A program made the position numbers and the translations under genes. A DNA stretch of 64,000 nucleotides from Saccharothrix syringae (GTDB lineage: Bacteria; Actinomycetota; Actinomycetes; Mycobacteriales; Pseudonocardiaceae): positions 8,618,001 to 8,682,000 of the forward strand of contig NZ_CP034550.1 in the NCBI RefSeq assembly GCF_009498035.1. Reading direction: 5' to 3'. This document shows positions 22,448 to 56,880 of this stretch, piece after piece (the first letter of the stretch is position 1; each line of letters begins with the position of its first letter). The notes beneath the pieces were generated by a model. It searched no databases and was not told the origin of the DNA. It worked only from the letters and a program-made list of their open reading frames with translations.

Positions 22448-22557
22448 ACCCTGCGCCGCCCGACCGGGGTGACACACCGTGTCCGACCGGGCAGTACGAG
22501 GTGTTCGGCCGTATGACATGCGATGTTCGAACGGATGACAGGCGTGGTTCGAACGCT
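22448..22557 (+). repeat. degenerate 22-base-period array (copy 3 of the family)
   Basis: Units start at 22448 (weak), 22470, 22492, 22514 and 22536. The 10-base cores include tgacacaccg, tgacatgcga and tgacaggcgt. The 12-base partners include tgtccgaccggg, tgttcggccgta, tgttcgaacgga and ggttcgaacgct. Spacing is exactly 22 each time. It is the same family as the arrays at 29812 and 36842 but more diverged. It lies in the 473-base divergent space between gap and the acyltransferase gene, which otherwise holds only the palindrome at 22360. Confidence 0.65.
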
Positions 22558-22672
22558 TCGTGGATCACGGAACGTCAACAAGCGGGCAACAGACACCCAA
22601 TCGCTCTACAAGAGGACCTCACGATCGGCTTATGCTTCGCCGCTTCCATCCGAACTCCCGTGGTGGTGCGCA

Positions 22673-27712: not shown

Positions 27713-27716
<4 letters not shown>
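26829..27716 (-). CDS. rapZ: RNase adapter RapZ-like nucleotide-binding protein
   Basis: The 295-residue protein has a Walker A motif [12 protein letters not shown] at residues 19-30 and the C-terminal block [19 protein letters not shown] typical of the RapZ/YvcJ family. In E. coli RapZ binds small RNAs and RNase E; in actinobacteria the role is not settled. It overlaps uvrC and yvcK by 4 bases each, so the operon is tightly coupled. Confidence 0.94.
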
Positions 27717-29653
<1,937 letters not shown>

Positions 29654-29811: not shown

Positions 29812-29997
29812 GGGTTCGCGGTGCCGGAGTGGAGGACACGCGGTGCCGGAGTGGAGGACACGCGGGTCTTGGGCGTTGAACTCGCGGGTGCCGGACGTTC
29901 GACACGGGAGGCGTGAACGTTCGACTCGCGAGGGCTGGGCGCATGACACGCGGGTCCTGGGCGCATGACACGCGGGGGGTGGGTGCGTGGCAGGCGG
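29812..29997 (+). repeat. 22-base-period intergenic array (copy 1)
   Basis: Eight units start at 29834, 29856, 29878, 29900, 29922, 29944, 29966 and 29988, each exactly 22 bases after the last; a ninth, weak unit is at 29812. The cores in order are ggacacgcgg twice, gaactcgcgg, cgacacggga, cgactcgcga, tgacacgcgg twice and tggcaggcgg. The 12-base remainders vary more and often end in gcgtt or gcgca. A period of 22 is not coding. It fills most of the gene-free space between the first Rieske gene and uvrC; 29654-29811 is only G-rich. Confidence 0.9.
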
Positions 29998-30009
29998 GGG
30001 TGGGGTGGG

Positions 30010-30474
30010 TCAGGCCAGGACTACCTGGCCGTTCTCCACCTTGACCGGGACCTCGGTGAGGCCGGTGGTAGCCGGGCCCTTGGCCAGTGAGCCGTCGGCG
30101 GCCTTGAACTGGCTGCCGTGGGCCGGGCAGGTCATGGTGCCGTTCTCCGGCGGGGCGACCGTCACGCCCTGGTGGGGGCACGTGGCGTCGTACGCCTTGA
30201 CCGCGTCGCCGGTGCGGACCAGCACGAGCGGCTTGCTGGTGGCGGGGTTGCCGGCCACCAGGCCGCCGCCGTCGGGCACGTCGGCCAGGGCCGCGATGGG
30301 GGGCGCACCGGCCGTGCCGGTCCCCGCGGTGCCACCGGAGGTGCCGGTGGTGCCACCGCCGGACGTGCTCGGCTCGCCGCCGCACGCCGCGAGACCGCCG
30401 GGGACCGCGAGCGCGACCAGCAGGCCGCACAGCGCCGAGCGACGGGACAGCCCTGTTTTCTCCGTTGAACTCAA
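30010..30474 (-). CDS. Rieske [2Fe-2S] lipoprotein, TTG start
   Basis: The 154-residue protein has a twin-arginine-like signal (GLSRRSALCGLL) ending in the lipobox LAAC (cysteine near residue 31), a Ser/Gly/Thr linker and a Rieske domain with CPHQGVTV and CPAHGSQF as the two cluster loops. It is probably a membrane-anchored electron-transfer protein outside the cytoplasm. The start is the TTG at 30474: GGAGG lies 7 bases upstream, while the longer frame has no signal peptide. A paralogue lies 100 bases upstream on the same strand. Confidence 0.85.
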   Translation of the reverse strand: MSSTEKTGLSRRSALCGLLVALAVPGGLAACGGEPSTSGGGTTGTSGGTAGTGTAGAPPIAALADVPDGGGLVAGNPATSKPLVLVRTGDAVKAYDATCPHQGVTVAPPENGTMTCPAHGSQFKAADGSLAKGPATTGLTEVPVKVENGQVVLA

Positions 30475-30967: not shown

Positions 30968-31100
30968 CGGTCCATCTTCGCCGATGGCGAGTGGATCAAC
31001 GCGGCCGGCCGGATGGAGCAGCGCCGGGTGGCGAGTGCGGTGAGGTGAGTGCGGCGAGGTGGGCGCGGCGAGGCGAGGCAGCGCGGGCGCGGCAGGGCGA

Positions 31101-31200
31101 GCGGGGCAAGCCGGGGCGGAGCGGGGCAAGCCGGGGCGGAGCGGGGCAAGCCGGGGCGGAGCGGGGCAAGCCGGGGCGGAGCGGGGCAAGCCGGGGCAGG
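31101..31200. repeat. 20-base tandem repeat, five copies
   Basis: The unit gcggggcaagccggggcgga is repeated five times at 31101, 31121, 31141, 31161 and 31181; only the last differs (in its final bases). Ten GGGG tracts on the plus strand give it G-quadruplex potential. It lies in the 591-base space upstream of the second Rieske gene. Confidence 0.92.
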
Positions 31201-31230
31201 GCGAGGCAGGCGAGGTGGGGCGGCCAGGCG

Positions 31231-31281
31231 GGGCGAGGCGCGGCGAGGCGAAGCGCGGCGAGGCGAAGCGCGGCGAGGCGG
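31231..31281. repeat. 15-base imperfect repeat (gcgaggcgaagcgcg)
   Basis: Three or so copies of a 15-base unit cgaggcgaagcgcgg follow the 20-base repeat after a short G-rich spacer. Low-complexity, no coding signal. Confidence 0.7.
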
Positions 31282-31297
31282 GGGGCATGGCAGCCGG

Positions 31298-36841: not shown

Positions 36842-37012
36842 CCACACGCGGTGCCGGACCGGAGGACACGCGGTGCCGGAGTGGAGGACACGCGCGGCTT
36901 GAACGCATGACACGCGCGGCTTGAGCGCATGACACGCCGCAGTTAAGTGCTCGATCCCGGGCGTGTCATGCGTTCGGCACCGGCGTGTCATGCGGTCGGG
37001 ACCCGCGTGTCA
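36842..37012. repeat. 22-base-period intergenic array with opposed arms (copy 2)
   Basis: Forward cores start at 36842, 36864, 36886, 36908 and 36930 (ccacacgcgg, ggacacgcgg, ggacacgcgc, tgacacgcgc, tgacacgccg), each exactly 22 apart. After a diverged unit at 36952, the same core appears inverted at 36959-36968, 36981-36990 and 37003-37012, also 22 apart. The whole therefore forms a forward arm facing an inverted arm. It occupies the 337-base space between the M28 peptidase and the PH-domain gene; 36712-36841 holds nothing else recognised. Confidence 0.9.
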
Positions 37013-42512: not shown

Positions 42513-45500
42513 TCAGACGGTCGAGGTCTCCTGCTGGTGCGTGAACCGGGCCAGTTCGACCCGCGAGCTGATGCCGAGCTTCTTGAAGATCCCCCGGAGG
42601 TGGTAGTTCACCGTGTGCGGGGACAGGTAGAGCTGCTTGGCCACCTGCCGGTTGGTCAGCCCGGCGCCGACCAAGCGCGCGATGTCGCGCTCCGGCCCGG
42701 ACAGCCGCTGCCAGCCCGCGCCGTCGCCCGGCTGGGCGTGCCCGGTGCGCCTGCGCAGCCGCGCGGCCTCGCCGTCCGCGCCCATCCGCTCGAAGACCCG
42801 CAGCGCCAGCGCGGTGTGGGAGGCGGCGCGGTCGGCGTGCCCGGTCTCGGCCAGCAGCACCGCCAGGTCCTCGTTGGCGTTGGCCTTCGCCCACGGGTGC
42901 ACGTGCCGCCCCGCCGCCGCCAGCAACCCGTCCACGTCGCGGTCCAGCAGCGCCCGCGCGTGGGCGGCGGCCACCGCCGCGGTCGGGAAGCCCGGGTTGT
43001 TCACGGCCAGCTCCTCGGCCGCGGCCACCACGTCGCCGGCCAGCTTGTCGTCGTCCACGGCCAGCGCGAGCCGGACCAGCCAGGCCGCCGCGCCCGGTTC
43101 CTCGATCAGCATGCGCCGGGTGGCACCGGGGTCGGCCAGGCGCTCGCGGACCTGCTCAGCCGCGCGGTCGTGACCGCCCTGAGCGTGCCCGAGCAGCAGC
43201 TCCACCCAGTCGTACTGGCCGGAGTGCAGCACCGCCTCCCCCGCGGCCAGGTCGGCCCGGTAGCGGCGCACGTGCTCGGCCGCCGCGGTGACCTCGCCCC
43301 GGTGCAGCGCCACCGTGGCCAGCACCGTGGAGGCGAGCGGCACCAGCAGCCGCAGGCCGCGGTCGCGGGCCGCGGCCAGGCCCTGCCGGGCCGCGACCTG
43401 GGCCTGCGCGAGCCTGCCCGCCTGGGTGAGCACGCGGGCGCGGGCGATCGTGCGGGCGGCGGGCGCGCCGGTGGTCACCGCGTCGTCCACGACGGCGCCG
43501 TCGCCGCGCACCAGGCGCTCGGCGTCGTCGAACTCGCCCAGCGCCGACAGCTTCAGCGCGAACGCCACCGACGACTGCGACTGCCACCACGCGGTGGGGC
43601 GGTCCAGCTCCCAGCGGGTGGACTCGCGGCCCCAGTACACGCCCTCGGCGAGGTTCCCGGCGCTCCACTCCAGGCACGAGTGCACGGTCGCGGCCATCAC
43701 CACGTCCGCGTCGCTGACCTCGCGGTCGCGGACGGTCAGCATGGACAGGGCGTGCGCGCCGGCGCGGGCACCGGTGGCGAAGTACAGCGACAGCAGCCGG
43801 CCCGCCTCGGCCAGCCGGCGCAGCGGGCCCGGCACGCCCGCCGTGATCCGCACCTGCTCGGTCTCGGCCACCGCGTCGGCCGGGCGGCCGTCGGCCAGCA
43901 GGATGCCCGCCAGCACGACGCGCAGCTCCGCGGCGGCGGCCGGGTCCAGGCGGGTGGTCAGGCTGTCCCGGGCCAGCGCGATGGCCGCGCCCAGGCGGCC
44001 GTTCGCGGCCAGGGCGCGGACGTCGCGCACGGCCGCCGCGCCCCGGGTGCTCTCCTCGATCTCGGTGGGGTCCGGGGGCGGGGCGGGAGCCGGGGGTTGG
44101 GTGAGGGTCGGGAGCTGGGTGTTCGGGGAGCGGGTGGGGGTCGGGAGCTTGGCGGGGTCCAGGAGCCGGGCGGGGCGCGGGGGCTGGACCTGGTCCGCGG
44201 GCTGGACCTGGTCCGGGGGCGCCGCAAGCGGCGGGGGCACGCCGGGGGCCGAGGGCACGCCAGGGGCCAGGGGCACGCCGGGGGTCGAGGGCGCTGCGGG
44301 GCTCGGAGGCTGGGCGGGGTCGGGGGCCCGGGCCGGGTCGGGGGCCCCGGTGAGGTCCAGGGGTCGGGCGGGGTTCGCGGCCGGCGGCACCGCCGCGTCG
44401 TGGCGCAGGGCGCGCAGCACCGGCTCGGGGATCGACGCGACCACCGCACGCCACACCAGTTCCGAGCCGAACTCCAGCCGCTCGCCGGTGGACACCACCA
44501 GGCCCGAGGCGATCACCTCGTCCACGGTCAGCAGCAGCGCGGCGGTGGTCTCGCCCATCATCGCGGCCGCCTCGTGCAGCGGGAACGACCGGCCGATCAC
44601 CGCGGCGACCCTCAGCAGCTGGGTGGCCTTGGCGGGCAGGGCCGCGACCCGGCCGCGCACCAGGTCGACCACCCGGGCCGGCAGCCGGGCGTCGCGCAGC
44701 CACGCCTCGTACCGCGCGTTCGGCCGGGCGTGGTGGGCCCGGGAGTCCTGCGGCAGGGGGTCGTGCACGCGGGGGTCGTGCCACTGGGAGGTGTGCAGCA
44801 GGGGGTCGTGCAGGAGGGCGTCGTGCAGGAGGGCGTCGTGCAGGAGGGGGTTGCGCAGGCGGGGGTCGCGCGGCCGGGTGTCGGGGCGCGGGGCGTCGGG
44901 CCGCGGCGCGTCGGGTGGCGGGGCGTCGCGCAGGCGGGCCACCCCGTCCCGCACGTCCAGCCGGTCCTCCTCGCGCAGGCCGGTGACCAGTTCGGCCACC
45001 AGGCGCGGGTCCCCGCCCGCCGCGGCGGCGAAGGCGGCCAGCTCCGGCGCCGGTTCGGCGCCGAGCACGTCCCGGACCACCCGCTCGACCGCGGCGGCGT
45101 CGACCGGGCCCAGGGGCAGCACCTCGCCGTGCTCGGGCAGGGCCCGGCGGACCGCGGCGCCCGCCTGGTGGCCGAACAGGGCCAGCAGGACGGTGACCGG
45201 GCGCTCGCGCACGTCGGCCAGCAGGGTGAGCAGGGCGGCGGGATCGGCGTGCGCGTGGTCGACGGCGAGCAGCGGGCGGGCGGGGGCGTCGAGTTCCAGG
45301 GTGCGGGCGACCTCGGCCGAGTTCGCCAGTTGCTCGCCGGGCACCAGGACGGCGAGGTAGCCGCGGTCGCGGGCCGCGTGGACCGCTTCTCCGAGCAGGA
45401 AGGTCTTGCCCGAGCACGGCGGGCCGTCGATGGCCAGCAGGCCACCCGGTGTGGACAGGAAGCGGAGAACCGAAGCCCATTCACGATCCCGGCCGTGCAA

Positions 45501-51540: not shown

Positions 51541-51741
51541 GCTGGGAGGGCGCTGACTAGGGGGTGCTGGTCGGGGTGCGCTGGGGGTGCGCTGCTGGCC
51601 GGGGCGCTGCTGACCGGGGGCGCTGCTGGCTGGGGGCGCTGCTGGCTGGGGGCGCGCTGACCGGGGGAAGCGCTGACTGGGGGAGGCGCTGACTGGGGGC
51701 GCGTTCTGACTGGGGGCGCGTTCTGACTGGGGGCGCGTTGG
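51541..51741. repeat. G-rich minisatellite
   Basis: From 51691 to 51741 the unit gactgggggcgcgttct (17 bases) is repeated three times, with the last two bases changed in the final copy. The 150 bases before it are variants (ggggcgctgctgg, gcgctgactggg). With the terminator below it fills the 424-base convergent space 51530-51953. Confidence 0.8.
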
Positions 51742-54074: not shown

Positions 54075-54258
54075 GCCGGGCGGGGTCGCGCCGGGCCGGG
54101 CCGAGTGGGGCCGGGCGGGCTGGGCTGGGCTGGCTGGGCTGGGCAGGCTGGGCTGGGCAGGCTGGGCAGGCTGGGCAGGCTGGGCTGGGCAGGCTGAGCA
54201 GGGCAGGCTGAGCAGGGCAGGCTGAGCAGGGCAGGCAGGCAGAGCAGGGCAGGGCGGA
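54075..54258. repeat. G-rich minisatellite (gggcaggctg units)
   Basis: Ten-base units related to gggcaggctg and, later, 13-base units tgagcagggcagg are repeated with variation. The sequence 53748-54074 before it has no gene; it includes a small GGTTGGTGG repeat near 53938-53975. Together they fill the space upstream of ggt and downstream of priA. Confidence 0.75.
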
Positions 54259-56519: not shown

Positions 56520-56880
56520 CGCGGCAAGGCAGCCGGGGCGGACAGGGCGGCTGGGCGGGCGGGGTGGCCAGGCAGGCAAGGCAGCCGGGCAGGACGGCCG
56601 GGCAGGCAGGCAGGCAGGCGGGCCGGGCAGGCGGGGCGGGGCGGGCAGGGCAGGACGGCTGGGCAGGACGGCCGGGCAGGCAGGCGGTCGGGCGGGGCGG
56701 GCAGGCGGGGCGGCCGGGCAGGACGGCCGGGCAGGCGGGGCGGGGCGGGCAGGCGGGGCGGGGCGGGCAGGCGGGGCGGCAGGGCAGGACGGCCGGGCAG
56801 GACGGCCGGGCAGGACGGCGGGCGGGCAGGGCAGGCGGGGCGGCCGGGCGGGCCGGGCGGGCCGGGCGGGCCGGGACAGC
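56520..56880. repeat. G-rich low-complexity tract with G-quadruplex potential
   Basis: About 360 bases are built of short variants of gggcaggcggggc and ggacggccgggca. Sub-repeats include the 10-base cgggcgggcc three times near 56840-56870. Runs of GGGG spaced by 1-5 bases near 56735-56775 meet the pattern for quadruplexes on the plus strand. It is between the priA start and the phospholipase relic; 56314-56519 shows no gene. Confidence 0.8.

Follow-up and report, generated by a model that had tools for sequence, protein, structure and literature searches.

The window analysed here, a stretch of 64,000 nucleotides of the Saccharothrix syringae chromosome (NZ_CP034550.1, positions 8,618,001 to 8,682,000), contains a tandem array between the stop codon of a gene for a Rieske-domain protein (PF00355; 30010..30591, minus strand) and the start of uvrC (27713..29653, minus strand). 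This array 1 (29813..29988, plus strand) consists of eight 22-bp units with the core GAC[A/T]CGCG in a single direction, which start at 29813, 29835, 29857, 29879, 29901, 29923, 29945 and 29967, all in steps of 22. A weak ninth unit with a GGCAGGCG core (29989..30010, plus strand) is placed 22 from the eighth and ends at the Rieske gene stop codon, which adjoins the array. The distance from array 1 to this stop is 21 nt, and the distance to uvrC, which lies downstream of the array, is 216 nt for the start picked by the gene caller or 159 nt for the GTG at 29653. Exact GACACGCG could be identified in four of the eight units, and the first unit is weak (GGTTCGCG). Lag-22 identity was 0.71 over positions 29812-29997 (186 bases), compared to a window mean of 0.29 (sd 0.055), and no equal value was found anywhere in the window more than 200 bases from array 1. 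The unit starts and the identity values bear out the preliminary description of this locus, in which eight units and a weak ninth at strict 22-base intervals had been reported.

A second array of the same family, array 2 (36843-37011), has two opposed arms: a forward arm with five cores (36843..36938, plus strand; cores at 36843, 36865, 36887, 36909 and 36931) and an opposed arm with three (36960..37011, minus strand; cores at 36960, 36982 and 37004). It adjoins the 3' end of a gene for a bPH_6-domain protein (PF10756; 37049..37498, minus strand), and a Peptidase M28 gene (PF04389; 35371..36666, minus strand) is located downstream of it. A two-unit remnant of the family could be recognized between divergent genes (22515..22558, plus strand). 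Array 2, this remnant and the genome-wide copies rule out that array 1 is unique. No Rfam family matched in the window at gathering scores. Further tandem arrays were observed in the window at 31061-31283, 44740-44939, 51585-51736, 54108-54257 and 56523-56875, with periods of approximately 20, 15, 16, 14 and 13 bases, respectively.

When the 10.93-Mb host genome was searched for pairs of the form GACACGCG N5-35 GACACGCG, 142 matches were obtained, compared to 5 for the reversed pattern, and among the matches listed all but two of the pairs were spaced at exactly 22. The genome-wide search proposed in the preliminary description was therefore positive and a large intergenic family exists; that the repeat might be found at this site only, a possibility raised at the same time, is contradicted by these pairs and by related arrays in other Pseudonocardiaceae. 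Fixed-gap pairs were found in 12 of 25 congeneric genomes, from 10 in G008 up to 268 in G016, none of these genomes having more than one reversed match, and in 12 of the 25 neither exact core formed pairs in notable numbers. Some match was present in 139 of 297 genomes of the bacterial family, many of them at chance level, and at least 10 matches were present in 37, which may include coding repeats besides arrays. In a draw of 296 genomes from the phylum, with no other member of the family, more than 4 pairs at 21 or 22 were found in the host only. A three-core pattern was detected, among the matches listed, in Saccharothrix, Kutzneria, Amycolatopsis, Pseudonocardia, Kibdelosporangium and Labedaea, with a few matches outside the family (among them Trebonia, Cellulomonas, Actinomadura, one Streptomyces and some metagenome bins), part of which are other kinds of repeat. 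In a Desulfobacterales genome (L147 918-969), three GACACGCG cores spaced at 22 lie next to a palindromic repeat that contains TTCCTGC; this locus is probably unrelated.

Related arrays occur in other Pseudonocardiaceae; core and linker drift, and the period is 22 bp or, in some genera, 21 bp. The cores GACACGCG, GACTCGCG and GACTCTCG depend on the lineage, and the linkers vary even more than the cores. Genome G166 contains 316 GAC[A/T]CGCG pairs, mostly GACTCGCG among the matches listed, and the GACTCTCG core forms at least 10 pairs in 11 congeneric genomes, with 136 pairs and zero GACACGCG pairs in G005. A period of 22 is common to the GACACGCG, GACTCGCG and GACTCTCG families. The genus of G249 and G077 has a period of 21, and the spacings in G249 are all 21 or 42 among the matches listed. 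In a set of 30 loci from 14 family genomes, of which loci L196, L198 and L212 are other repeats, 21-bp arrays were found in five further genera and one locus had a period of 20. G222 carries both a 21-bp and a 22-bp family.

The statement that base changes accumulate and the spacing never shifts holds over 862 kb of host sequence, where all 109 successive cores within 9-36 bp of each other are at 22 despite 590 linker substitutions, and the reversed pattern was met three times. Among the named loci, 398 spacings are at 22 and 15 at other values between 15 and 30. A lag scan of host intergenic regions that makes no use of the core, on a sample partly chosen for containing arrays, ranked 22 first (36 of 302 regions), followed by 15 (18 regions). 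Because copying of whole units keeps the period without selection, the junctions between opposed arms carry more weight as evidence than the invariant 22 taken by itself.

With genes called by a simple codon-usage caller, the host sample contains 42 multi-unit arrays, 21 one-way and 21 with opposed arms; the counts do not include nine single-unit matches, of which six are intragenic. Overlap with called genes is 20 nt or less for each of the 42 arrays, which rules out a coding origin. After exclusion of three arrays at stretch ends, 39 were used for placement statistics. In these 862 kb, many stretches of which had been picked for holding arrays and not for gene context, 32 of the 39 are at most 60 nt from a stop codon (7.5 expected), the median distance to the stop is 18 nt versus 175 at random (0/2000), 19 are located between convergent genes (null 6.9; 0/2000) and two between divergent genes (null 7.5; 21/2000). 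In a contiguous 382-kb stretch with 14 arrays, the distance to the stop was 15.5 versus 222 (0/2000) and the excess between convergent genes was not significant (5/14, null 2.8, 273/2000); all seven arrays between tandem genes in this stretch are nearer to the stop than to the next start. The arrays are found just 3' of genes, and their orientation is not tied to transcription (the nine one-way arrays lying between tandem genes split 4 versus 5).

The distances between the innermost cores of '<<< >>>' arrays cluster near 45, 56, 67, 78, 88, 99, 110, 122, 132, 143 and 155. The best period was 10.85 (R 0.88) for 86 '<>' junctions and 10.95 (R 0.88) when one junction was kept per loop cluster (n=29), and the R of neither set was reached in 2000 uniform-distance simulations, which ignore the ancestry shared by many of the junctions. 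The 86 junctions were taken from the named loci (Saccharothrix for the most part, with a few from Kutzneria and Amycolatopsis), from the host and from G010, G016, G166 and G249; the stretches of G010 and G016 had been picked with a pattern that restricts the distances to 83-113. Junctions under 40 were excluded from the fit; among the excluded are nine '<>' distances of 18 which, as far as they were read, belong to Pseudonocardia-type units GACACGCGAGTC with an overlapping forward and reverse core (L142). Clustering the loops with unit sequence included is too coarse, giving 11 clusters and an R of 0.71 at 11 bp. Phasing could be observed in the host alone (13 junctions, R 0.77; 8/2000) and in G249 and G166 alone (13 junctions, best period 10.60, R 0.83; 3/2000). 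Eighty of the 86 junctions are within 1.5 bp of 11k+0.5, which by chance covers 4 of 11 residues, and six (47, 69, 69, 70, 75 and 91) are off the lattice. Among the matches listed, junctions of the GACTCTCG core are on the lattice in 20 of 20 cases in G004 and 9 of 9 in G005. The '><' junctions show fixed offsets particular to them: 8 in all 12 GACTCTCG cases among the matches listed, 28, 50, 71 and 139 in the host, and 66-67 in 8 of 14 cases in G249, the others being 36 to 58.

Loop sequences differ within a length class. The 87-90 class is represented by 27 junctions from Saccharothrix, whose loops are 7-10 nt long and fall into 23 distinct sequences (21 with strands merged), and 17 junctions of the 88-90 class differ in pairwise alignment by a mean of 17.2 substitutions and 1.3 gap events. 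The 11 '><' loops of the 21-bp genus are all 16-17 nt long and little alike, being slightly more alike than shuffles (0.495 versus 0.458, sd 0.009). In Saccharothrix sp. NRRL B-16348 the 8-nt loop AGATCGAC is repeated at L135, L143, L165 and L170 and inverted at L123, and this recurrence, once in inverted form, suggests copying of whole centres. Arm steps of ~11 bp with differing loops favour phase-locked DNA binding over RNA hairpins. In the available part of PMC1762422, the helical repeats fitted in living E. coli are 11.08 and 11.60 bp per turn, values close to the junction step. The equation of 22 bases with two helical turns, made in the preliminary description, holds for a helical repeat of ~11 bp, the value derived from living E. 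coli, and not for one of 10.5.

At orthologous sites the arrays turn over. Upstream of uvrC the array was seen in none of the 19 readable relatives (of 24). A second look gave a lag-22 stretch of 0.75 without cores in G015; with both looks combined, 22 of the 24 relatives were readable at least once, and G019 and G023 never. The region near the uvrC start is similar in many relatives that have no array 1. As none of the readable relatives showed the array at uvrC, a role tied to uvrC is ruled out, and the element that had been linked to uvrC is instead a 3'-end element. In G010 and G016 (L242, L247) the gap upstream of uvrC holds a different repeat, with a 31-base lag (~three turns), near CGCGAGGTCGCGTCG. 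The site that array 2 occupies, next to the 3' end of the bPH_6 gene, carries an array with a 22-bp lag in 11 of the 25 congeneric genomes, host included. These arrays differ in core, linker, length and direction; the period was kept in all 11 arrays of the 22-bp family, as had been anticipated for homologous arrays. The site otherwise holds unrelated repeats in two genomes (lags 19 and 17) and none in twelve. In G006 and G015 (L341, L347) the TGA stop of the bPH_6 gene can be read within a core-like TGAGTCC, so that the array may extend into the end of the gene. At one convergent site in two Saccharothrix species, one has an array of ~180 bp and the other a single worn unit. Some sites persist and their content changes, units are gained and lost, and the lattice stays; the evidence for this is the one convergent case and the bPH_6 site, as BLAST at shared sites is hard to read when arrays align to one another.

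The arrays are best accounted for as runs of sites for a putative DNA-binding protein that would form a protein-bound lattice at gene ends, a reading to which a probability of roughly 0.55 is given. Each 8-bp core would be one site of the putative protein, and the sites would recur every two helix turns. With opposed arms held a set number of turns apart, the bound copies could form one phase-locked complex; two protein-bound arms in fixed phase would need stepped lengths, which a hairpin would not. Cooperative binding is inferred, and the complex would serve as roadblock, insulator or topological element; such a barrier at gene ends might stop read-through or convergent polymerases, or anchor supercoils. 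The earlier interpretation, selection for spacing and cooperative protein binding instead of a simple slipped repeat, is partly supported, in so far as the conserved period and the ~11-bp arm steps with differing loops point to spacing selection and DNA binding over plain slippage, and the binder is a putative protein.

An explanation at the RNA level, by which transcribed arrays form long hairpins and thereby terminate transcription or shield the 3' ends of mRNA, agrees with the position just past stop codons, often between convergent genes, and with folding: the 21 two-armed arrays greatly exceed their shuffles in folding (mean z -11.2), and array 1 also folds better than its shuffles (z -3.5, both strands). 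However, strong folding of two-armed arrays is expected, because any inverted repeat must fold, and the 15 one-way arrays, taken together, have only a small folding advantage over shuffles (mean z -1.2, both strands). Opposing units and linkers show no in-register complementarity beyond the likeness of the whole array (0.704 in register versus 0.682 out of register; 28 arrays up, 22 down, p=0.20), hairpin loops do not need length steps of 11 bp, and Rfam gave no match in the window at gathering scores. A strand-specific RNA signal is ruled out by the uncoupling of orientation from transcription (4 versus 5 of nine). Weak one-way folding, the missing register effect and the uncoupled orientation make a function at the DNA level preferable, and RNA elements are considered unlikely. 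Slightly better placed, and still improbable, is the view that the arrays are dispersed repeats of the REP/MITE type, neutral or selfish, which expand by duplicating units and survive at the sites where they do the least damage. Their patchy distribution, the array not being seen at uvrC in relatives, the shrinkage to one worn unit at a sister-species site, the identical loops in NRRL B-16348 and the higher likeness within arrays (0.68-0.72) than between arrays (0.56) would all fit. On the other hand, an array persists at the bPH_6 site in 11 of 25 congeneric genomes, no match to PF01797, the family of RAYT-type transposases, was obtained in the array-rich G000, G010 and G016 (two in the array-rich G017), and loop lengths are fixed in helix-turn steps with changed sequence, for which we know of no neutral cause.

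Elements of DNA topology like the E. coli BIMEs, bound at gene ends by gyrase or another topoisomerase, are a still weaker candidate. A sequence-specific 8-bp core every two turns is unlike gyrase, for which, to our knowledge, such an arrangement is not known. The excess between convergent genes (19/39, null 6.9), which is not significant in the contiguous 382 kb, and the similar placement of REPs elsewhere, as given in the available part of PMC3733652, speak for them. That the arrays are sites of WhiA is very improbable. The core starts with GACAC, the motif bound by monomeric WhiA with variable orientation according to the available part of PMC3781837, and A is at the fourth base in 68% of 106 tandem host units; whole families, however, use GACTCGCG or GACTCTCG and lack GACAC, and the WhiA targets in that part of PMC3781837 are promoter regions, whereas the arrays are at 3' ends. 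WhiA promoter sites are rejected on these two grounds.

The arrays were also compared with known repeat systems. Like REP/BIME elements, they are many short extragenic copies, mostly 3' of genes, between convergent genes and often in opposed pairs, a placement described for REP repeats in the available part of PMC3733652; unlike them, they have a strict 21 or 22 bp tandem lattice with arms phased by helix turns. The REP/BIME unit, a palindrome of 20-40 bp tagged GTAG or CGTC, was not found, as the unit matrix is non-palindromic on inspection and GTAG is present in the array linker of some species only. A RAYT/REP system is rejected: PF01797 occurs in 5 of the 25 congeneric genomes, with the distribution given above. 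Iteron arrays, which lie within a replication origin next to a rep gene, bind Rep and have units of ~17-22 bp, and they resemble the arrays in being tandem direct repeats about two turns apart; the identity is ruled out by 142 pairs across the chromosome, by the many array loci at gene ends and by the neighbours of the window arrays (Rieske, uvrC, bPH_6, M28), with no rep gene. Bidirectional intrinsic terminators share with the arrays an inverted-repeat structure and a location between convergent genes, often beginning only a few bases from a stop codon. A stable hairpin in each copy, as expected of a terminator, is not seen in the one-way arrays as a group (mean z -1.2), which make up 21 of the 42 multi-unit arrays, and the spacing of arms and loops is that of a helical lattice. 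Satellite or VNTR arrays (MIRU-like) gain and lose units between species, as the arrays do, whereas in the host sample 22 is the only spacing against 590 linker substitutions and loop lengths are nearly fixed. CRISPR is ruled out, as linkers are alike within arrays (0.72 between neighbours of one arm) and are not unique spacers.

Against the protein lattice stand the rotation of successive cores by about 34 degrees at 10.5 bp per turn, the six off-lattice junctions, the shared ancestry of junctions, the 1.3 gap events in the 88-90 class and the folding of array 1 (z -3.5). The convergent excess is also not significant in the contiguous 382 kb, and 12 of the 25 congeneric genomes have no notable pairs, and therefore the function is dispensable. 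More tentatively, and with the odds against it, a family-wide 'gene-end chromatin' is proposed, in which two-turn arrays at gene 3' ends would be occupied by the putative protein in a phase-locked filament or loop. This structure would block transcription from both sides or mark a topological boundary, and the arrays would record the in vivo helical repeat (~10.9-11 bp).

Among the top search results listed from the open-licence PMC literature, no description of the array family or of the helical lattice was found, in agreement with the preliminary description, which knew of no matching family, and the arrays are unmentioned in the available parts of the genome papers PMC3469384 and PMC4210621. 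Intergenic 3'-end repeats are already known (REP/BIME; available part of PMC3733652); the helical lattice is the part not found described. A strict helical rule over up to hundreds of unit pairs per genome points to a DNA-binding system in this family of antibiotic producers, and the arrays could be used directly as bait for the putative binding protein. The junction distances would be a natural measure of DNA twist in vivo. If the arrays block or insulate transcription at gene ends, they would represent a protein-based alternative to hairpin terminators.
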